Source: DASVDK01 sp036562265 [NCBI: Thermodesulfobacteriota bacterium] (GTDB lineage Bacteria > DASVDK01). Taken from it: DNA of 7,026 bases. The notes under the pieces are model-generated. The model was not told the DNA's origin, made no database searches, and saw only the letters and a list, made by a program, of their open reading frames with translations. Both the position numbers and the translations under genes were made by a program. Within the stretch, counting starts at the first letter, position 1. Every line of letters starts with the position of its first letter. Location: contig DATCKS010000301.1 in the NCBI GenBank assembly GCA_036562265.1, forward strand, positions 1-7,026. Direction: 5' to 3'. Shown here piece after piece: positions 1-7,026 of this stretch.

Positions 1-642
1 GGCCGGCTCGACGAGGCGGCGATCCGCACCTGGATCCGCAACCGCTTCGCCTACCAGCGGATCATCCCGCTCAAGGACGCCGCCATCCTGTCGAACTGCC
101 CGGTCCTCGAGGTGCGCAGGATCTGGATCCGGCGCATCACCGATCACGACGGCGTGGCGGGTTCGCCCGACTCGCCGAACGGCGGCCTCGAGGCCTGGCT
201 GCTCCTCGGCGAGGCGGCCGGCATCCCGCGCGAGGCGATGCTCGACGAGCGGCAGGTGCTCCCCGGGGTTCGCTTCGCCTGCGAGGCTTACCTCAACTTC
301 TGCCGGCAGCGGCCGTGGATCGAGGCGGTCGCCGCCTCGCTCACGGAACTCTTCGCCCCCGACCTCATGGCCGTGCGGCTTGCCGCCTTCGAGCGATTCT
401 ACCCGTGGGTCGAGGCCCGAGGGTTGCGCTATTTCCGCAACCGCCTCACGCAGGCGCCGCGGGACAGCCGCGAGGCGCTCGACCTCGTGCGGCGATGGTG
501 CGTCACCGCGGAGCAGCAGCAGGCGGCCGTCGACGCGCTCGTCTTCAAGTGCGACCTCCTCTGGTCCATGCTCGACGCGATCGACCGGGCCTGCGCCGAT
601 CGCCCCGCGCGGGCGGTCGACACCGCCGGCAGCGCGGCGTGA
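1..642 (+). CDS. pqqC: PqqC, pyrroloquinoline-quinone synthase (5' end cut by window)
   Basis: PqqC catalyses the last step of PQQ synthesis in the cytoplasm: oxygen-dependent ring closure and oxidation of AHQQ to PQQ. The frame is open from base 1 and 213 residues are visible. Against Klebsiella PqqC (recalled, about 250 aa) roughly the first 35 residues are missing, so the start lies upstream. Conserved blocks in order, numbered from the window edge: NRFAYQ with R15 and Q19, IPLKDAA with K25, RRITDHDG with R45 and H49, GGLEAWL, LPGVRFA, SLTELFAP with E116, LRYFRNR with Y144 and R148, and FKCDLLWSMLDA with K183. These match Klebsiella R50, Q54, K60, R80, H84, E147, Y175, R179 and K214. Two oddities: about four extra residues (SPDSP) after DHDG, and Met123 where Klebsiella has active-site His154. 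The stop overlaps the pqqD start (GTGA), so the two are probably translationally coupled. The family call is very secure. Confidence 0.97.
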   Translation, partial: GRLDEAAIRTWIRNRFAYQRIIPLKDAAILSNCPVLEVRRIWIRRITDHDGVAGSPDSPNGGLEAWLLLGEAAGIPREAMLDERQVLPGVRFACEAYLNFCRQRPWIEAVAASLTELFAPDLMAVRLAAFERFYPWVEARGLRYFRNRLTQAPRDSREALDLVRRWCVTAEQQQAAVDALVFKCDLLWSMLDAIDRACADRPARAVDTAGSAA

Positions 643-950
643 GCCTCCCGGCCGGCCCCTTGCGGCTCGCGCGCCGCGCGAAGCTGCGCCTCGACCCGGT
701 GCGGCGAAAGCCGCTCCTCCTCGTGCCCGAGGGGGTCCTCGTCCTCAACCGGACGGCGCACGAGATCGTGAGGCGGATCGACGGCACGCGGACGGCGGCC
801 GATCTCGCGGCGGAGCTGACGGCGGCGGCTGGCGGCGAGGCGCGCGTCGCGGCGGAGGTGCGCGCCTTCCTCGAGCGTCTCGCCGCGAAGGGACTCCTCG
901 AGGAGGTCGGGGGCGCCGCACCCGGTGCGGGCGCGGCGCCGCGAGGGTGA
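639..950 (+). CDS. pqqD: PqqD, PQQ peptide chaperone
   Basis: PqqD is a small RiPP recognition element protein. It binds the PqqA precursor peptide and presents it to the radical SAM enzyme PqqE. The predicted product is 103 aa, slightly longer than the usual 90-95. The family pattern is clear: a basic N-terminal part with RLARRAKLRLDPVRRKPLLLVPEGVLVLN (shown here in pieces: RLARRAKLRLDP at 9-20, LLLVPEGVLVLN at 26-37), then a helix with HEIVRRIDG (41-49), a hydrophobic helical region, and EVRAFLERLAAKGLLEEV near 73-90. The tail after residue 90 is Gly/Ala/Pro-rich and probably disordered; its DNA is full of inverted repeats. I chose GTG at 639 because it overlaps the pqqC stop by 4 bases and gives a normal N-terminus; no strong Shine-Dalgarno is visible, consistent with coupled reinitiation. 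pqqD is not fused to pqqC or pqqE here. Confidence 0.94.
   Translation: MSLPAGPLRLARRAKLRLDPVRRKPLLLVPEGVLVLNRTAHEIVRRIDGTRTAADLAAELTAAAGGEARVAAEVRAFLERLAAKGLLEEVGGAAPGAGAAPRG
913..943. other. Dyad-symmetric hairpins at the pqqD 3' end, facing pqqA
   Basis: CCGCAC (916-921) and GTGCGG (925-930) form a 6-bp stem around a 3-base loop. With one bulge it extends to GCGC on both sides (913-934). The 12-base perfect palindrome CGCGGCGCCGCG follows at 932-943. The structures lie inside the last codons of pqqD and 19-49 bases beyond the pqqA stop on the other strand, so they could stop or slow transcripts from either side. Neither side has a T-run, so a classical intrinsic terminator is not supported. 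Chance palindromes are common in DNA this GC-rich. Confidence 0.35.
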
Positions 951-961
951 CCGATGCGGGG

Positions 962-1063
962 CTACTCGGTCTCCGTCCAGTCGGCCACGTACGCGGTGAC
1001 CTCGGCGCTCGCCCCGACCTCCTCGAACTCCGGCGTCTCCCAGGTCAGCTCTCGATCGTCCAT
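962..1063 (-). CDS. pqqA: PqqA, PQQ precursor peptide (on the opposite strand to pqqCDE)
   Basis: PqqA is the ribosomally made substrate from which PQQ is built: PqqE joins the side chains of a Glu and a Tyr, and proteases then release the cross-linked pair. This 33-aa peptide has the family signature W-x2-P-x-F-x-E followed by EVTAY. W8, P11, F13 and E15 are followed by E21 and Y25 with the required three-residue spacing (codons at 1001-1003 and 989-991). The tail after Tyr25 is VADWTETE, acidic rather than the short basic tail of many PqqAs. Length is in the normal range (about 22-40). The ATG start is supported by GAGGAGG five bases upstream. The same frame stays open far upstream, antisense to pqqE, so gene callers could overextend or miss this gene. 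It faces pqqD tail to tail (11 bases) and pqqE head to head (96 bases). Confidence 0.9.
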   Translation of the reverse strand: MDDRELTWETPEFEEVGASAEVTAYVADWTETE

Positions 1064-1068
1064 GCCTG

Positions 1069-1075
1069 CCTCCTC
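1069..1075 (-). promoter_or_regulatory. Shine-Dalgarno of pqqA
   Basis: Read on the minus strand the site is GAGGAGG, five bases before the ATG at 1063. It is the strongest ribosome binding site in the PQQ part of the window. It fixes the pqqA start, ruling out the much longer reading of the same frame, and fits a precursor peptide that must be made in greater amounts than its modifying enzymes. Confidence 0.85.
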
Positions 1076-1089
1076 GGCGGGAGCCGAAA

Positions 1090-1104
1090 CCGTGGTCCCC
1101 ACGG
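1090..1104. other. Inverted repeat in the pqqA-pqqE divergent gap
   Basis: CCGTGG (1090-1095) and CCACGG (1099-1104) form a perfect 6-bp stem with a 3-base loop. If pqqA is transcribed from the minus-strand promoter proposed at 1122-1150, the repeat lies in the pqqA 5' leader, about 25 bases before the start codon. It could also be an operator between the two divergent starts. No known regulator site is recognised. Confidence 0.35.
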
Positions 1105-1120
1105 CCCGGCCCGCCGTCCG

Positions 1121-1129
1121 TAGGATACT
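1121..1129 (+). promoter_or_regulatory. Candidate -10 region of pqqE
   Basis: TAGGATACT contains two overlapping -10-like hexamers (TAGGAT, GATACT) about 30-39 bases before the pqqE ATG. No convincing -35 box lies at the right distance. The same bases read on the minus strand provide the TATCCT proposed for pqqA, so one site may serve both directions. It is one of the few AT-containing spots in this gap. Confidence 0.4.
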
Positions 1130-1150
1130 CCGCCCGCGACGCACTGGGAA
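1122..1150 (-). promoter_or_regulatory. Candidate sigma70-type promoter of pqqA
   Basis: On the minus strand TTCCCA (1150-1145) is followed after exactly 17 bases by TATCCT (1127-1122). Each matches the TTGACA/TATAAT consensus at four of six positions. Transcription would start near 1115 and give a leader of about 50 bases carrying the CCGTGG/CCACGG hairpin. The spacing is ideal, but the -35 box is modest, so this is a prediction only. Confidence 0.4.
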
Positions 1151-1159
1151 CGGGAGACG

Positions 1160-2272
1160 ATGACCCACCCCTTCTCCCTGGTGGCCGAGCTCACCTACGC
1201 CTGCCCGCTGCGCTGCCCGTACTGCTCGAACCCCGTCTCCCGGCCGCGCGGGGAGGAACTCCCCGCCGAGGTCTGGGGTCGCGTCGTCGACCAGGCGGCC
1301 GCCCTCGGCGTCGTGCAGGTCCACCTCTCGGGCGGGGAGCCGACGCTGCGCCCCGATCTCCTCGTGGACGTCGTGGCGCGCGCAGCCCGCCACGGGCTCT
1401 ACACGAACCTGATCACGTCGGCCTACCGCCTCGACGAGGCGCTCCTTGCGCGGCTTGCGGCCGCCGGCCTCGACCACGTGCAGATCAGCCTGCAGGACGC
1501 CGACCCCGCGTCGGCCGACCGTCTCGCCGGCACGGCGAGCCACGCGCGCAAGCTCGACGCGGCGCGTCGCGTCAAGGCGCGGGGTCTCCCGCTCACGCTC
1601 AACGTGGTGCTCCACCGGCACAACCTCGACCGGATCGAGGCGATCATCGCCCTGGCCGAGTCGCTCGGGGCCGACCGGCTCGAGCTGGCGAACGCCCAGT
1701 ACTACGGCTGGGCGCTCGCGAACCGTCCCTGGCTCTTGCCGACGCGAGCCCAGATCGAGCGGGCCTTCGCGGTCGTCGAGGCGGCGAGGCGGCGGATCGG
1801 CCCCCGCATGCAGGTGATCCACGTCGCGCCGGACTACTTCACGGGCGAGCCGAAGCCCTGCATGGACGGCTGGGCGCGGCGCCACCTGACGGTGACGCCC
1901 GACGGCCGCGCCCTCCCCTGCCCCGCCGCGGGCGACATCACGACGCTCGCGTTTCCGTCGGTGCGCGAGCGGGCGCTCGCATGGATCTGGTTCGAGTCGG
2001 CCGCCTTCAACGCCTACCGGGGCGACGCGTGGATGCAGGAGCCGTGCAGGTCCTGCCCGAGAAAGGGGATCGACTTCGGCGGCTGCCGCTGCCAGGCGTT
2101 CGCCCTGGCCGGCGACGCCGCGGCGGCCGACCCCGCCTGCCGGTGGTCGCCGCACCACCGCGTCGTCGTCGAGGCGGTGGCCGCGGCCGAGGCCAAAGGC
2201 CCGTCGGCGGCGAACGTGCGCGACCGGACCGCCCCCCGACAGGTCGGCCGGCGGTCGCGTCCCCCCTGCTAG
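1160..2272 (+). CDS. pqqE: PqqE, PqqA peptide cyclase (radical SAM/SPASM)
   Basis: PqqE uses S-adenosylmethionine and iron-sulfur clusters to form the carbon-carbon bond between the Glu and Tyr side chains of PqqA, the first committed step to PQQ. The product has 370 aa, normal for the family. The radical SAM cluster motif C15-x3-C19-x2-C22 (TYACPLRCPYCSNP) is followed by the SAM-binding LSGGEP at 56-61. The C-terminal SPASM domain keeps the auxiliary-cluster cysteines: C234 (KPCMDGW), C254 (LPCPAAGD), then C296, C299, C309, C311 and C327, including the PqqE hallmark GGCRCQAF. The ATG at 1160 is preceded by GGGAG with a short 3-base spacer. It gives the typical family N-terminus. The last about 25 residues are an Arg/Pro-rich extension. 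pqqE is separated from pqqD by the inverted pqqA. Confidence 0.97.
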   Translation: MTHPFSLVAELTYACPLRCPYCSNPVSRPRGEELPAEVWGRVVDQAAALGVVQVHLSGGEPTLRPDLLVDVVARAARHGLYTNLITSAYRLDEALLARLAAAGLDHVQISLQDADPASADRLAGTASHARKLDAARRVKARGLPLTLNVVLHRHNLDRIEAIIALAESLGADRLELANAQYYGWALANRPWLLPTRAQIERAFAVVEAARRRIGPRMQVIHVAPDYFTGEPKPCMDGWARRHLTVTPDGRALPCPAAGDITTLAFPSVRERALAWIWFESAAFNAYRGDAWMQEPCRSCPRKGIDFGGCRCQAFALAGDAAAADPACRWSPHHRVVVEAVAAAEAKGPSAANVRDRTAPRQVGRRSRPPC

Positions 2273-2294: not shown

Positions 2295-3968
2295 ATGCCG
2301 CTTGCGGAATCGATGGCGACCCTCGCCGACCAGATCCTCGAGGATCGCTGGAAGACCTCGCCGGTCACGGCCACCCTCGACGGCGTGCACCGGTACGACC
2401 GGGAACTCGACGAGGTCGACGCCGACGCGCTGGCCGACGCGGCGGCGCGCCAGCGGGCCTGGCTCGCCCGCCTCGCGGCCATCGACCGGGCCGCGCTGCC
2501 GATCGAGGCGCGCCTCGATCACGCCGTCCTCACCGGGTATCTCGAAGCGGCGATCGACGCCTACGAGCACGTCCGGGCCTGGCAGAAGGACCCGAGCGGC
2601 TACGCGACCACCGCCCTCTACGGCGTCTTCCCGCTCGCGCTGCGCACGTTCGCGCCGGTCGAGACGCGCGCCGAGGCGGCGGCGTCGCGCCTCGCGCAGG
2701 TCCGGCGGCTCCTCGAGCAGGCGCGCGCGAACCTCGAGAGCGCCACCTCCGGGCGCGTCTCGCCGCGGCTCTTCACCGAGACCGCCATCGAGGTCGTCCG
2801 GGGCGGCCAGGCCTTCTTCGCCGAGGTCGTGCCGCGCCTCGCCGAGTCGCTCGCGTCGCACGCGCTCAAGCGGCAGCTCCTCGAGGCCAACGCCGACGCC
2901 ATGGCGGCCTTCGCCGACTACCTCGAGTGGCTCCGGAGCGTCCACCTGCCGCGTTCCACCGGCAACTTCGCCATCGGGCGCGAGGCCTTCGACCTCAAGC
3001 TGCGCGCCGAGCACGGCCTGCCGTACGACGCCGAACAGCTCGACGCCATCGGCCGCGAGGCGATGGAGCAGACCGAACGGAGCCTCGCCGCGCTCGCGCG
3101 CACGATCGACCCGAACCGGAGCTGGATGGAGCAGGTCGAGGCGCTCAAGCGCGACCACCCCACCGCCGCGGGGCTCCTCGACACGTACCGCGCCGAGATG
3201 GCCCGCGCCCGCGCGTTCGTCGTCGAGCACGGGCTCGCCACGCTGCCGCCGGACGAGTCGCTCGAGGTGGTCGAGACGCCGGTCTTCGAGCGGCCGCTCG
3301 TCCCCTACGCGGCCATGATGCCGCCGGCGCCGTTCGACGCGGAGCAGAAGAGCCTCTTCTACGTGACGCCGGTCGACACGACGCGGCCCGAGACCGAGCA
3401 GTGGGAACAGCTCAAGGGCCACTCGACGTACGCCATCCCGGTGACCGCCCTGCACGAGGCCTATCCGGGGCACCACCTTCAGATCTCCCGGGCCAACCGG
3501 ATCGCGTCGAAGGTGCGCCGGGTGGTGTCGACGCCGGTCTTCGTGGAGGGCTGGGCCCTCTACTGCGAGGAGATGATGTACGAGGCGGGCTACTATCCCG
3601 ACCCGCGCGTACGCCTCTTCCAGCTCAAGGACCTGCTCTGGCGCGCCTGCCGCGTGGTGATCGACGTCGGCCTGCACTGCATGGGGATGACGCCGGCCGA
3701 GGCGGTGGACCTGCTCGTCACGCGGGCCCACCTCGAGCGCGCCAACGCGGAGACCGAGGTCCGCCGCTACTGCGCCACGCCGACGCAGCCGATGTCCTAC
3801 CTGATCGGCCGGCGCGAGATCCTCGCCCTGCGCGACGCCTACCGGGACCGGGGCGGCAGGCCGTTCGCACTCGGCGCCTTCCACGACGCGATCCTCTCGT
3901 ACGGCAGCATCCCCGTCGGCCTGATCCGCGAGGCCGTCCTCGCCAGGCAGGCCGGGAAGCGCGCATGA
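2295..3968 (+). CDS. DUF885 family protein, predicted zinc metallopeptidase
   Basis: The 557-aa product is full length for DUF885 (PF05960), a widespread family of predicted metal-dependent peptidases whose physiological substrates are mostly unknown. The active-site signature TALHEAYPGHHLQ carries H387, E388, H393 and H394. A likely third ligand, E418, lies in VFVEGWALYCEE, the usual downstream family motif. A third conserved block, TQPMSYLIGRREI, falls at about 497-509. The N-terminal half is largely helical. There is no signal peptide or lipobox, so this copy should be cytoplasmic, unlike the many exported lipoprotein members. Start: ATG at 2295 after a strong GGGGAGG. It begins 22 bases after pqqE and overlaps the M24 gene by four bases (ATGA), so the two peptidases are almost certainly co-translated. 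Peptide processing or degradation is the expected role; a link to PqqA is only positional. Confidence 0.9.
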   Translation: MPLAESMATLADQILEDRWKTSPVTATLDGVHRYDRELDEVDADALADAAARQRAWLARLAAIDRAALPIEARLDHAVLTGYLEAAIDAYEHVRAWQKDPSGYATTALYGVFPLALRTFAPVETRAEAAASRLAQVRRLLEQARANLESATSGRVSPRLFTETAIEVVRGGQAFFAEVVPRLAESLASHALKRQLLEANADAMAAFADYLEWLRSVHLPRSTGNFAIGREAFDLKLRAEHGLPYDAEQLDAIGREAMEQTERSLAALARTIDPNRSWMEQVEALKRDHPTAAGLLDTYRAEMARARAFVVEHGLATLPPDESLEVVETPVFERPLVPYAAMMPPAPFDAEQKSLFYVTPVDTTRPETEQWEQLKGHSTYAIPVTALHEAYPGHHLQISRANRIASKVRRVVSTPVFVEGWALYCEEMMYEAGYYPDPRVRLFQLKDLLWRACRVVIDVGLHCMGMTPAEAVDLLVTRAHLERANAETEVRRYCATPTQPMSYLIGRREILALRDAYRDRGGRPFALGAFHDAILSYGSIPVGLIREAVLARQAGKRA

Positions 3969-5182
3969 GCGACGTCGCCGCCCACGCGCGCATCGCCGAG
4001 ATCCAGGCGGCGCTTCGCGAGGCGGGCCTCGACGGCTGGCTCTTCGCCGTCTTCCGCGGGTCGGACCCGATCGCGTCGGCGGTCCTCGGGCTCCCCCCCG
4101 GCCACGAGTCGCGGCGGTGGTTCTACTACGTCCCGGCCGAGGGGCGTCCCGGGAAGCTCGTCCACGCGATCGAGGCGGGCCGGCTCGACGCCCTGCCCGG
4201 CGAGCGCACGCTCTACGCGAGCTGGCAGGCGCTGCACGAGGGACTCCGCACCCTCCTCGCCGGCGCGCGGCGGGTCGCCATGCAGTACTCGCCGATGAAC
4301 GCCATCCCGTACGTCTCGCGGGTGGATGCCGGCACGGTCGAGCTGGTCCGCGCGGTCGGCTGCGAGGTCGTCTCGTCGGCCGACCTGGTGCAGCGGTTCG
4401 AGGCGATCTGGACGCCCGAGCAGGCGGCGAGCCACATGCGTGCCGCCGCGGCGCTCCGCGCCGTCATCGACGCCGCCTTCGACGAGGTCCGCCGCGCGGT
4501 GCAGGGCGGCCGGCGGCTCGACGAGTACGGGCTCCAGCAGTTCATCCTCGACGAGTTCGGCCGCCGCGGCCTCACGACCGACCACCCGCCCGGCGTCGCC
4601 GTCGGCGCCAACACCGCCGACCCCCACTACGGCCCCGGTCCCGACCGGTCGGCCGAGATCCGCGAGGGTGACATCCTGCAGCTCGACATCTGGGCGCGCG
4701 AGGCGGCCTCGTCCGACTCGATCTACGCGGACATCACCTGGACCGCGGCGGTCAGCCGTACGGTTTCGGCCGAGCACGCCCGCATCTTCGAGCTGGTGCG
4801 TCGCGCGCGGGATACCGGCATCCGGCTCGTCGCCGAGCGGGTCGCGGAGGGGCGCCCGGTCCACGGCTACGAGGTCGACGACGCCGTCCGGTCGGTCATC
4901 CGCGAGGCCGGGCTCGCCGACCGGTTCGTCCACCGCACCGGCCACTCCATCGGCCGGCTCGTGCACGGCAACGGCGCGAACGTGGACAACTTCGAGACGA
5001 GGGACGAGCGGCGACTCCTGCCGGGGACCGGCTTCTCCATCGAGCCCGGCGTCTACTTCGAGGGGCGCTTCGGCGTGCGCAGCGAGGTCGACGTCTACAT
5101 CGAGCCCGGCGACGGCACGCGCGGCCCCAGGGCCGTCGTCACGGGCGAGCCGATCCAGACCGAGGTCGTGGCGCTCCTCTGA
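3965..5182 (+). CDS. M24 family metallopeptidase, Xaa-Pro aminopeptidase-like
   Basis: The 405-aa product has the two-domain M24B layout: an N-terminal creatinase-like domain (about 1-150) and a C-terminal pita-bread metallopeptidase domain (about 155-405). Such enzymes are dinuclear-metal exopeptidases, often removing a residue before proline. All five expected metal ligands are present: D241 (LQLDIWA), D256 (IYADITWT), H327 (RTGHSIG), E360 (FSIEPGVYF) and E374 (VRSEVDVYI). H221 (NTADPHYGPG) matches the conserved substrate-side histidine. The two Asp ligands are 15 residues apart instead of the usual 11, because of a small insertion around AREAASSDS. There is no signal peptide. The ATG at 3965 overlaps the DUF885 stop by four bases, with GGGAAG five bases upstream. 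The intact ligand set argues for an active enzyme, but substrate specificity cannot be read from the sequence. Confidence 0.92.
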   Translation: MSDVAAHARIAEIQAALREAGLDGWLFAVFRGSDPIASAVLGLPPGHESRRWFYYVPAEGRPGKLVHAIEAGRLDALPGERTLYASWQALHEGLRTLLAGARRVAMQYSPMNAIPYVSRVDAGTVELVRAVGCEVVSSADLVQRFEAIWTPEQAASHMRAAAALRAVIDAAFDEVRRAVQGGRRLDEYGLQQFILDEFGRRGLTTDHPPGVAVGANTADPHYGPGPDRSAEIREGDILQLDIWAREAASSDSIYADITWTAAVSRTVSAEHARIFELVRRARDTGIRLVAERVAEGRPVHGYEVDDAVRSVIREAGLADRFVHRTGHSIGRLVHGNGANVDNFETRDERRLLPGTGFSIEPGVYFEGRFGVRSEVDVYIEPGDGTRGPRAVVTGEPIQTEVVALL

Positions 5183-5190
5183 CGGAACGT

Positions 5191-5196
5191 GGAGGG
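5191..5196 (+). promoter_or_regulatory. Shine-Dalgarno of the cupin gene
   Basis: GGAGGG lies seven bases before ATG 5204. The in-frame GTG at 5189 overlaps this site and would add five unconserved residues, so ATG 5204 is preferred. Confidence 0.8.
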
Positions 5197-5203
5197 ACCA
5201 GAG

Positions 5204-5554
5204 ATGCTCACGGTGAACTGGGACGCGGTGCCGGCCGAACGGATCAACGACGCGATCACCCGGCGGCTCGTGACCGGCGAGAAGGTGATGCTCTGCCGAT
5301 GGACCATGCGCGCGGGGGCGGTCGTGCCGGCCCACAGCCACCCGCACGAGCAGGTCGCCTGGATGCTGAGCGGGACGATGCGGATGCGCGTGGGGGACCG
5401 GTGGCTCGACTGCCGGGCCGGCGACGTCGTGGTCATCCCCGGCGGGACCGAGCACGAGGCGACCTTCCCGACCGACTGCGAGGTGGTCGACGTCTTCTCG
5501 CCGCCCCGCGAGGACATGCTCGCGAAGAGCGAGACGTATCTCACCCGGGGTTGA
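5204..5554 (+). CDS. Small single-domain cupin protein
   Basis: The 116-aa product is one complete cupin barrel. Motif 1 runs from G38 to G57 with H44, H46 and Q50 (PAHSHPHEQ); Gln takes the usual Glu position, as in many HSHPHEQ-type cupins. Motif 2 (G73 to F88) has P79, G81 and H84. H44, H46, Q50 and H84 should bind one divalent metal. Such stand-alone cupins include dioxygenases, isomerases and ligand sensors, and nothing here selects among them. There is no DNA-binding domain and no signal peptide. The gene starts 21 bases after the M24 gene and has its own strong ribosome site, so it is probably the last gene of the three-gene operon. The C-terminal VFSPPREDML is a common ending for this cupin type. 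Confidence 0.88.
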   Translation: MLTVNWDAVPAERINDAITRRLVTGEKVMLCRWTMRAGAVVPAHSHPHEQVAWMLSGTMRMRVGDRWLDCRAGDVVVIPGGTEHEATFPTDCEVVDVFSPPREDMLAKSETYLTRG

Positions 5555-5615: not shown

Positions 5616-5636
5616 GGCGCGCTTGGCAAGCGCGCC
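5616..5636. promoter_or_regulatory. Perfect palindrome over the -35 box, possible operator
   Basis: GGCGCGCTT (5616-5624) and AAGCGCGCC (5628-5636) are exact inverted repeats separated by three bases (GGC). The proposed -35 hexamer TTGGCA (5623-5628) lies in its centre. A dimeric repressor bound here would block the exporter promoter. No regulator gene is visible in the window, and the repeat could also act as a hairpin in read-through RNA. Confidence 0.45.
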
Positions 5637-5651
5637 GGGGGTGTCTACACT
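5623..5651 (+). promoter_or_regulatory. Sigma70-type promoter of the MFS gene
   Basis: TTGGCA (5623-5628), then a 17-base spacer, then TACACT (5646-5651). This is the best-matching promoter in the window: five of six at -35 and four of six at -10. The expected start of transcription is about 5658-5661, only three to six bases before the GTG start codon at 5664. Confidence 0.65.
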
Positions 5652-5663
5652 CTCGTTCCCACG

Positions 5664-6926
5664 GTGCGCCTCCTCCGCGCCCTCGCCTCGCGCAACTACC
5701 GCCTGTTCTTCGCGGGCCAGGGCATCTCCCTCATCGGCGGGTTCATGACGCGGGTCGCGTCGGCGTGGCTCGTCTACCGTCTGACCGACTCGCCGTTCCT
5801 GCTCGGGCTCGTCAGCTTCGCCTCGACCATCCCCACCTTCGTCCTCGGGCCGCTGGTGGGTCCGCTCGTCGACCGGTCGAACCGCATCGGCCTGGTCATC
5901 GGCGCGAAGGTGCTCTCCATGCTCGTCTCGCTCGCGCTCGCCGTCCTCGCCTTCTCGGGCGCGATCGAGGTCTGGCACATCGCGGTCCTGAACCTCTGCC
6001 AGGGGCTCATCGACGTGGTCGAGGTGCCGGCGCGCCAGTCGCTCGTCGTCGACCTGGTCGAGCGGCGCGAGGACCTGCCGAACGCCATCGCCCTCAACTC
6101 CTCCCTCTTCAACGCGGCCCGCCTCGTCGGGCCGTCCATCGGGGGGCTCGTCATCGCCGCCGCCGGCGAGGCGGCCTGCTTCCTCGCGGACGCCCTCTCG
6201 TACCTGGCGATCATCGCGGCGCTGCGCGCCGTGCGCCTGCCGCCCAGGCCGCCGCGAGCGTCCATCGTCCCCTTCGGCCGCCAGTTGCGCGAGGGGCTCG
6301 TCTACGCCCTCGGGTCGAGCCCCATCCGGGCGGTGCTGCTCCTCCTCTCCCTGACGAGCCTCGCGGGGATGCCCTACATCACGCTCGCGCCGGTCATGGC
6401 GCGCGACGTGCTCGGCGGCGGCCCCGAGACGCTCGGCTTCCTCATGGCGTCGATCGGCGTCGGCGCCCTCGGCGGCACGATGTTCCTCGCCGCGCGGACG
6501 AGCGTGCGCGGGTTCGGGACGATCATCGCCGCGGCCGCCGCCGTCTTCGGCGCGGCGGCCGGCGTCTTCGCCCTCTCGCACGTCTTCTGGCTCTCGTCGC
6601 TCGCCCTCGCCGTCGCGGGGGCCGGCATGATCGTCCACTCGGCCGCCGCCAACACGGTCCTCCAGACGCTCGTGGGGGACGAGATGCGCGGGCGGGTGAT
6701 GAGCCTCTACGCGGTCGCGGTGATCGGCATGATGCCCTTCGGCAGCCTCGGCGCCGGAGCGCTCGCGAGCCAGATCGGCGCGCCGGCGACGATCCTCGCA
6801 GGCGGCCTGCTCTGCGTGGGCGGCTCGGCGCTCTTCGCGAGGCAACTGCCGGCGCTGCGCGCGGCGGTGCGACCCGCGTGGGCGCGGCCTGCCGCGGGGG
6901 TGCCGGCGGCGAGCGGGAGGGACTGA
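5664..6926 (+). CDS. MFS transporter, EntS-like MFS_3 family exporter
   Basis: The 420-aa product is an inner-membrane major facilitator with about 12 hydrophobic segments. It belongs to the MFS_3 (PF05977) group, which includes the enterobactin exporter EntS and many drug-efflux-like proteins. The N-terminus RNYRLFFAGQGISLIGGFM (11-28), the motif-A loop GPLVGPLVDRSNR (62-74), EVPARQSLV (120-128), PNAIALNSSLFNAARLVGP (139-157) and MRGRVMSLYAV (341-351) are typical. The substrate cannot be told; siderophore, small-molecule or drug export would all fit. The GTG at 5664 is chosen because the conserved N-terminus begins at once and no earlier start is in frame. No Shine-Dalgarno precedes it, and the promoter places the mRNA 5' end a few bases upstream, so the message looks leaderless. 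The Ala/Pro-rich tail (about 396-420) is cytoplasmic and unconserved. Confidence 0.93.
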   Translation: MRLLRALASRNYRLFFAGQGISLIGGFMTRVASAWLVYRLTDSPFLLGLVSFASTIPTFVLGPLVGPLVDRSNRIGLVIGAKVLSMLVSLALAVLAFSGAIEVWHIAVLNLCQGLIDVVEVPARQSLVVDLVERREDLPNAIALNSSLFNAARLVGPSIGGLVIAAAGEAACFLADALSYLAIIAALRAVRLPPRPPRASIVPFGRQLREGLVYALGSSPIRAVLLLLSLTSLAGMPYITLAPVMARDVLGGGPETLGFLMASIGVGALGGTMFLAARTSVRGFGTIIAAAAAVFGAAAGVFALSHVFWLSSLALAVAGAGMIVHSAAANTVLQTLVGDEMRGRVMSLYAVAVIGMMPFGSLGAGALASQIGAPATILAGGLLCVGGSALFARQLPALRAAVRPAWARPAAGVPAASGRD

Positions 6927-6927
6927 C

Positions 6928-7026
6928 TCACTCGCCCGCGAGCCGCTTGAGCGCCTGCTCGAGATCGGCGATCAGGTCGTCCGGGTCCTCGAGCCCGGCG
7001 TGGAGGCGGATCAGCGGCCGCGGTCC
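6928..7026 (-). CDS. C-terminus of Cys/Met metabolism PLP enzyme, cystathionine beta-lyase-like (cut by window)
   Basis: Only the last 32 residues and the stop are in the window. LIRLHAGLEDPDDLIADLEQAL is the characteristic C-terminal end of the Cys/Met metabolism PLP-dependent family (PF01053: cystathionine gamma-synthase, cystathionine beta- and gamma-lyases, methionine gamma-lyase). The RLHxGLED form recalls E. coli MetC, where I remember LIRLHIGLEDVDDLIADL, so a cystathionine beta-lyase-like enzyme is the best guess, but this tail cannot fix the reaction. The catalytic Lys and PLP site lie outside the window. The stop is one base from the end of the MFS gene on the other strand, with no room for a separate terminator. 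Confidence 0.85.
   Translation of the reverse strand, partial: GPRPLIRLHAGLEDPDDLIADLEQALKRLAGE

Follow-up and report, generated by a model that had tools for sequence, protein, structure and literature searches.

In a 7,026-nt stretch of DNA, referred to here as the window, the pqqA gene sits inverted in the gap that separates pqqD from pqqE, its coding strand opposite to that of the enzyme genes. The arrangement is real but rare, a variant layout of the pqq cluster in which both the gene and the pathway are familiar ones. On balance, the gene is probably an ordinary pqqA that forms its own expression unit, has been moved in reversed orientation into the gap between pqqD and pqqE, and would supply PQQ synthesis in trans.

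The original prediction described pqqA as convergent with pqqD and divergent from pqqE, and the gene calls confirmed this layout (Table 1). The segment 962-1159 that it singled out consists of pqqA (962-1063) and the 96-nt gap to pqqE. The pqqD and pqqA genes are arranged tail to tail, with 11 nt from stop to stop, whereas pqqA and pqqE are head to head; pqqD and pqqE are both intact. PqqC, PqqD and PqqE each score above their own NCBI equivalog cut-off. The G+C content is 73.5% over the whole window and 75% in the pqqA-pqqE gap. The pqqD-pqqE gap measures 209 nt, compared with a median of 26 nt over 99 pqqD matches that lie less than 1 kb from pqqE elsewhere, as measured from match end to match end.

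Table 1. Features of the pqq locus and their positions in the window.
Feature	Position	Strand	Basis
pqqC, 5' end cut by window start	1-642	+	TIGR02111, 250 bits (cut-off 240)
pqqD, overlapping the pqqC stop	639-950	+	TIGR03859, 62.6 bits (cut-off 46); PF05402, 46.6 bits
Hairpin, candidate 3' end signal of pqqA	912-940	-	13-bp stem, 3-nt loop, no T-run
pqqA, inverted precursor gene	962-1063	-	PF08042 and TIGR02107, both over cut-off
Divergent gap between pqqA and pqqE starts, 96 nt	1064-1159	.	Sequence
Candidate sigma-70-like pqqA promoter, TTCCCA-17-TATCCT	1122-1150	-	8/12
pqqE, radical SAM/SPASM enzyme	1160-2272	+	TIGR02109, 502 bits (cut-off 381)

A clear PqqA with W-x2-P, EVTAY and a strong Shine-Dalgarno sequence had been predicted, and this was borne out by two profiles over cut-off and a GAGGAGG ribosome site directly 5' of the minus-strand ATG. 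The 33-aa product translated from the gene, MDDRELTWETPEFEEVGASAEVTAYVADWTETE, scores 29.0 bits against PF08042 (cut-off 21.1, E 1e-6) and, in an NCBIfam profile search, 29 bits against TIGR02107 (cut-off 20); by profile score it is a member of the PqqA family. Its W-x2-P-x9-E-x3-Y core is complete, and the Glu-x3-Tyr that becomes PQQ is present as E-V-T-A-Y; E-X3-Y is named as the PqqA motif in PMC12423496. The core equals that of Rubrobacter marinus PqqA (L008) in 16 of 18 residues. In the 146 distinct PqqA cores compared, W, P, E and Y are invariant by construction, as the collecting pattern required them. The position-specific score of the window PqqA is 51.7, against at most 6.9 for the reversed sequences of 60 loci. 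A chance ORF was ruled out by the profile scores and this reversed-sequence control. A 506-aa minus-strand ORF (962-2482) contains pqqA in frame; it was taken as a by-product of the 73.5% G+C because it runs antisense through pqqE and because a clean ribosome site precedes the start of PqqA. No second PqqA was found by position-specific search of the 7-kb window, which begins inside pqqC.

The window shares with the canonical pqqABCDE operon the precursor, the chaperone, the radical SAM enzyme and PqqC, the co-directional order C-D-E, and a hairpin after pqqA. It differs, as far as the window shows, in the reversed pqqA in the D-E gap. The canonical pqqA is co-directional and upstream of pqqB, whereas the sole pqqA of the window is reversed and follows pqqD; this comparison covers the window, which starts inside pqqC.

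The rarity of the layout was assessed in 221 pqqE loci: 80 named loci (from a species genome collection with 196 relatives, of which the best 80 were taken), 134 regions from the phyla of genomes G001, G012, G011, G007, G003, G010, G006 and G008, and, lastly, 7 regions of the G005 phylum. Among the first 214 loci, where PqqA was counted at a position-specific score of at least 20, it was seen in 176 (168 co-directional only, 6 opposite only and 2 both) and absent from 38. The last seven gave a co-directional PqqA in six and none in one, on a short contig. PqqA was thus seen in 182 of 221 loci; it occurs only in the direction of pqqE in 174, only on the opposite strand in 6 and in both orientations in 2, which agrees with the expectation that pqqA usually runs in the direction of the enzymes. 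Comparing gene order around pqqE in relatives had been suggested as a check, and it marked the layout as unusual: an opposite-strand PqqA between pqqC/pqqD and pqqE occurred in 0 of the 182 surveyed loci with PqqA. As the loci were picked by likeness to the window PqqE, some are clipped by contig ends, pqqD is often too diverged to detect and the relatives are not independent, these counts are a guide to rarity and not frequencies.

Each half of the arrangement was found separately. A co-directional PqqA lies between pqqC/pqqD and pqqE in five loci (L018, L019, L036, L233, L269), with two further loci of this kind in which no pqqC was seen (L033, L229). The five resemble the window in having pqqA in the stretch before pqqE, but their pqqA is co-directional with pqqE. 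The six opposite-only copies lie upstream of pqqC (L074, L250, L255, L272) or downstream of pqqE (L047, L267); they resemble the window in having pqqA on the strand opposite pqqE, but outside the D-E gap. Among them, L255 has a divergent pqqA-pqqB against pqqC-D-E, and L047 also has a co-directional PqqA match of score 17, under the cut used. Of the two loci with both orientations, L342 owes this to a second pqqE, which the same region carries on its other strand. Relocation and inversion are each known elsewhere in the survey, and none of the surveyed loci combines them as the window does. A pqqA reversed between pqqD and pqqE was not found in searches of CC0, CC BY and CC BY-SA papers for pqq layout or expression. 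The survey also revealed 20 loci with the order A-C-(D)-E in which pqqB follows pqqE, 12 of Actinomycetota and 8 of the phylum of G006 (L025, L038, L040, L041, L048, L059, L061, L066, L075, L077, L079, L080, L299, L303, L305-L310), and two G007-phylum genomes with pqqE first, in the order E-A-C-D (L286, L287).

A local inversion had been offered as one origin of the layout. As pqqA normally lies upstream of pqqB, a simple local inversion alone cannot convert the usual order into that of the window. The gene would rather have moved co-directionally into the D-E gap and then flipped, or entered it by a one-step reversed insertion. The intermediate state, a co-directional pqqA in the D-E gap, is present in the five loci named above, which belong to other lineages. 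Inversion by flanking repeats was also considered; 18 inverted pairs were listed for 640-1400, none of them judged a likely agent. The pairs spanning pqqA are 71-100% matched and chance-like, with arms in pqqD, pqqE or the gap. The strongest short-range pair, a perfect 15-nt inverted repeat, has one arm at the end of pqqD (898-912) and the other within pqqA, at its middle (1012-1026); both arms encode E-E-V-G on their own strands. No PqqE relative closer than 62% identity to the window PqqE was found, and two trees, one of PqqE (147 rows) and a thinned one of PqqC+PqqE, both leave the window on a long lone branch. A search of a viral collection for the lineage of the window gave nothing.

PqqE, in complex with PqqD, cross-links PqqA as its substrate (PMC10906245), and this chemistry requires no shared strand for pqqA and the enzymes. 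As a separate unit, pqqA would comprise its own promoter, a strong ribosome site, the 33-codon gene and a 3' hairpin. We infer that the gene is expressed and functions in PQQ synthesis: its transcript would start near 1115, about 50 nt before the ATG, from the 1150-1122 site, and would end at the hairpin just past its own stop, and the precursor peptide would feed the normal PqqD/PqqE/PqqB/PqqC machinery in trans. This reading is supported by the PqqA calls, the adjoining pqqC, pqqD and pqqE equivalogs, the position of the promoter site, the 3' hairpin, the moved or reversed pqqA genes elsewhere in the survey, and the expression of stand-alone pqqA in a methylotroph. It is weakened by a weak promoter, by a hairpin without a T-run, and by the lack of such a hairpin in all six opposite-only copies of the survey.

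The candidate promoter is weak, given that a standard scan (9/12) found none in 600-1400, that shuffled whole windows contain 1.9 sites of at least 8/12 on average, and that the gap is 75% G+C. The whole window has two sites of at least 8/12, this one and one at 5623-5651, both within the 259 non-coding nt of its 7026, and 0.8% of 500 single-base shuffles of 1064-1200 reach 8/12. The best promoter-like site of the window, TTGGCA-17-TACACT (9/12, 5623-5651, plus strand), lies just before an MFS transporter gene at 5664.

The hairpin starts 22 nt past the pqqA stop, inside the last codons of pqqD, and 12 of its 13 pairs are Watson-Crick. It exceeds every other short-loop stem of the window in length; when at least 11 pairs are required, the window gives seven matches, three of them registers of this hairpin, against 2, 0, 0, 0 and 7 in five shuffles. 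It folds with an MFE of -33.2 and z of -3.15 (-4.59 with more flank, -2.4 as a plain 70-nt tail). A standard scan found no intrinsic terminator in 600-1400, and there was no Rfam match. Without a T-run, termination at this hairpin is a proposal only; on the pqqD strand it would be crossed by translating ribosomes, and it may be a chance feature of G+C-rich DNA.

The 70 nt after each pqqA stop were folded in the first 214 loci, and a hairpin was called strong at z below -2. Strong hairpins follow 87 of 182 pqqA copies (a number that equals the 182 PqqA loci of the full survey by coincidence), all 87 in loci with a co-directional pqqA, where the hairpin separates the gene from the next one. After pqqB (n=164), pqqC (n=174) and pqqE (n=172) the share is about 5%, a difference with a Mann-Whitney p of about 1e-32 when kinship among loci is ignored. 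By phylum, the hairpin follows pqqA in Gemmatimonadota (16/18), Actinomycetota (21/40), Acidobacteriota (8/11), the phylum of G006 (7/14), Pseudomonadota (23/53), Bacillota (5/13), others (5/11) and, weakly, the phylum of G003 (2/10); it followed none of the 12 copies in the phylum of G012. None of the six other opposite-only pqqA copies has a 3' hairpin with z below -2, so the hairpin goes with co-directional pqqA and is no general mark of reversed copies.

These results bear on the proposal that the inversion uncouples precursor dosage from enzyme expression. Precursor dosage is probably already uncoupled in ordinary pqq clusters, since strong hairpins follow 87 of 182 pqqA copies and only about 5% of pqqB, pqqC and pqqE, and the effect is therefore probably not special to the inversion. 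In Methylorubrum, pqqA transcripts reportedly outnumber longer ones. The dosage proposal loses further ground to free-standing, well-expressed pqqA copies already in print: of the five copies described in one methylotroph, three stand alone, and expression is highest for pqqA1 and for pqqA3, one of the free-standing copies (PMC9851590). For the Gluconobacter operon, the only promoter detected is that of pqqA (PMC8102297), so any separation of pqqA there would have to act after initiation.

Two alternatives concern the window pqqA itself. It could be an extra copy, with a co-directional pqqA upstream of pqqB beyond the window, a situation with precedents: two PqqA genes scoring at least 20 occur in 6 of 176 loci (L022, L040, L048, L311, L341, L342), L022 pairs a co-directional with an opposite pqqA, and five copies are described in one methylotroph (PMC9851590). 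This is nevertheless improbable, as 170 of the 176 loci have a single nearby PqqA and the 7-kb window holds no other. It is less probable still that an assembly artefact flipped or inserted a short segment at 950-1160. The region comes from a single contig, no relative among the loci examined has the same order, and the perfect 15-nt inverted repeat links the end of pqqD to pqqA; but this repeat does not flank pqqA, and recombination there would break the gene. Such an artefact would also need both of its break points in gaps of 11 nt and 96 nt and would have to spare the stop of pqqD, the ribosome site of pqqA and the start of pqqE, all of which are intact.

The remaining alternative concerns expression. 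pqqC, pqqD, pqqE and the downstream genes could share one mRNA that runs antisense across pqqA, a noncontiguous operon in which pqqA transcription collides with that of the enzymes, the RNAs pair, and precursor and enzyme expression oppose each other. An opposite-strand gene is indeed nested in the window (pqqC+ pqqD+ pqqA- pqqE+), the single operon being putative. The same pattern, an opposite-strand gene nested between co-directional pathway genes, is described for menE-menC-MW1733-ytkD-MW1731 in S. aureus (PMC7154746), and a phage case is described in PMC11087260. Co-transcription and reciprocal control were reported for S. aureus (PMC7154746) and are putative in the window; a further difference is that the nested gene of the window encodes the substrate of the pathway. 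Read-through into pqqE is favoured by the lack of a good plus-strand promoter in the 1064-1159 gap, where the best site on the pqqE side reaches only 6/12, and the pqqC/pqqD overlap and the common direction of the three enzyme genes point the same way. Against this, the hairpin could stop pqqA antisense transcription, and opposed expression of substrate and enzymes is not obviously useful, which makes the whole reading doubtful. The original prediction stressed pqqA transcripts running antisense into pqqD and pqqC. This is the less likely direction given the 13-bp hairpin, which lacks a T-run but could shorten the pqqA antisense RNA before most of pqqD. An mRNA shared by pqqD and pqqE would be antisense to the whole of pqqA, so that the likeliest antisense effect, judged from the sequence, would be that of the enzyme mRNA over pqqA, the reverse of the emphasis first given. 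The earlier interpretation therefore held for the unusual layout and was weakened for the dosage effect, the antisense transcription and local inversion as the sole origin. A bolder version, in which a RiPP-type cofactor pathway is organized as a noncontiguous operon with its enzyme mRNA antisense to its own precursor gene, is improbable. The same low standing applies to its corollary that the supply of peptide and that of enzymes exclude each other, either over time or from cell to cell, as a state fixed in a deep lineage.

The arrangement shows that pqqA need neither lead its own operon nor point along it. Annotation that seeks pqqA only upstream of pqqB and on the same strand misses such genes. 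The 3' hairpin of pqqA in its usual orientation could explain separate supply of precursor and enzymes in several phyla. If the antisense control were true, the locus would offer a testable noncontiguous operon in cofactor synthesis.

In the phylum of G012 (L236-L272), 25 of 37 loci have pqqE and no recognisable PqqA within at most about 7 kb per side, and 17 of these 25 also have pqqB and pqqC. No TIGR02107 match over cut-off was found in the 25 genomes. These loci may have a diverged precursor, because the model under-scores even a real PqqA of this phylum (G278, 17.9 bits). Small-ORF families were considered as an alternative precursor in 21 PqqA-less loci, with motif inspection covering 20 loci; the 40 top-ranked small ORFs listed all run on the strand opposite to pqqE and look like antisense by-products.

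Genes for a DUF885 protein, an M24 peptidase and a cupin closely follow pqqE in the window (2295-5554, plus strand), and these proteins could be candidates for a PqqA-processing protease. By tblastn with the window proteins, neither DUF885 nor the cupin was found near pqqE in the 214 surveyed loci, and M24 only in L057. Seven DUF885 neighbourhoods elsewhere contained no M24. Relatives of the window DUF885 protein, in 51 genomes, reach at most 48%. At the far end of the window, a minus-strand frame end (6927-7026) has a C-terminus that reads, by eye, ...LIRLHAGLEDPDDLIADLEQALKRLAGE, and resembles the end of a cystathionine gamma-synthase/lyase.
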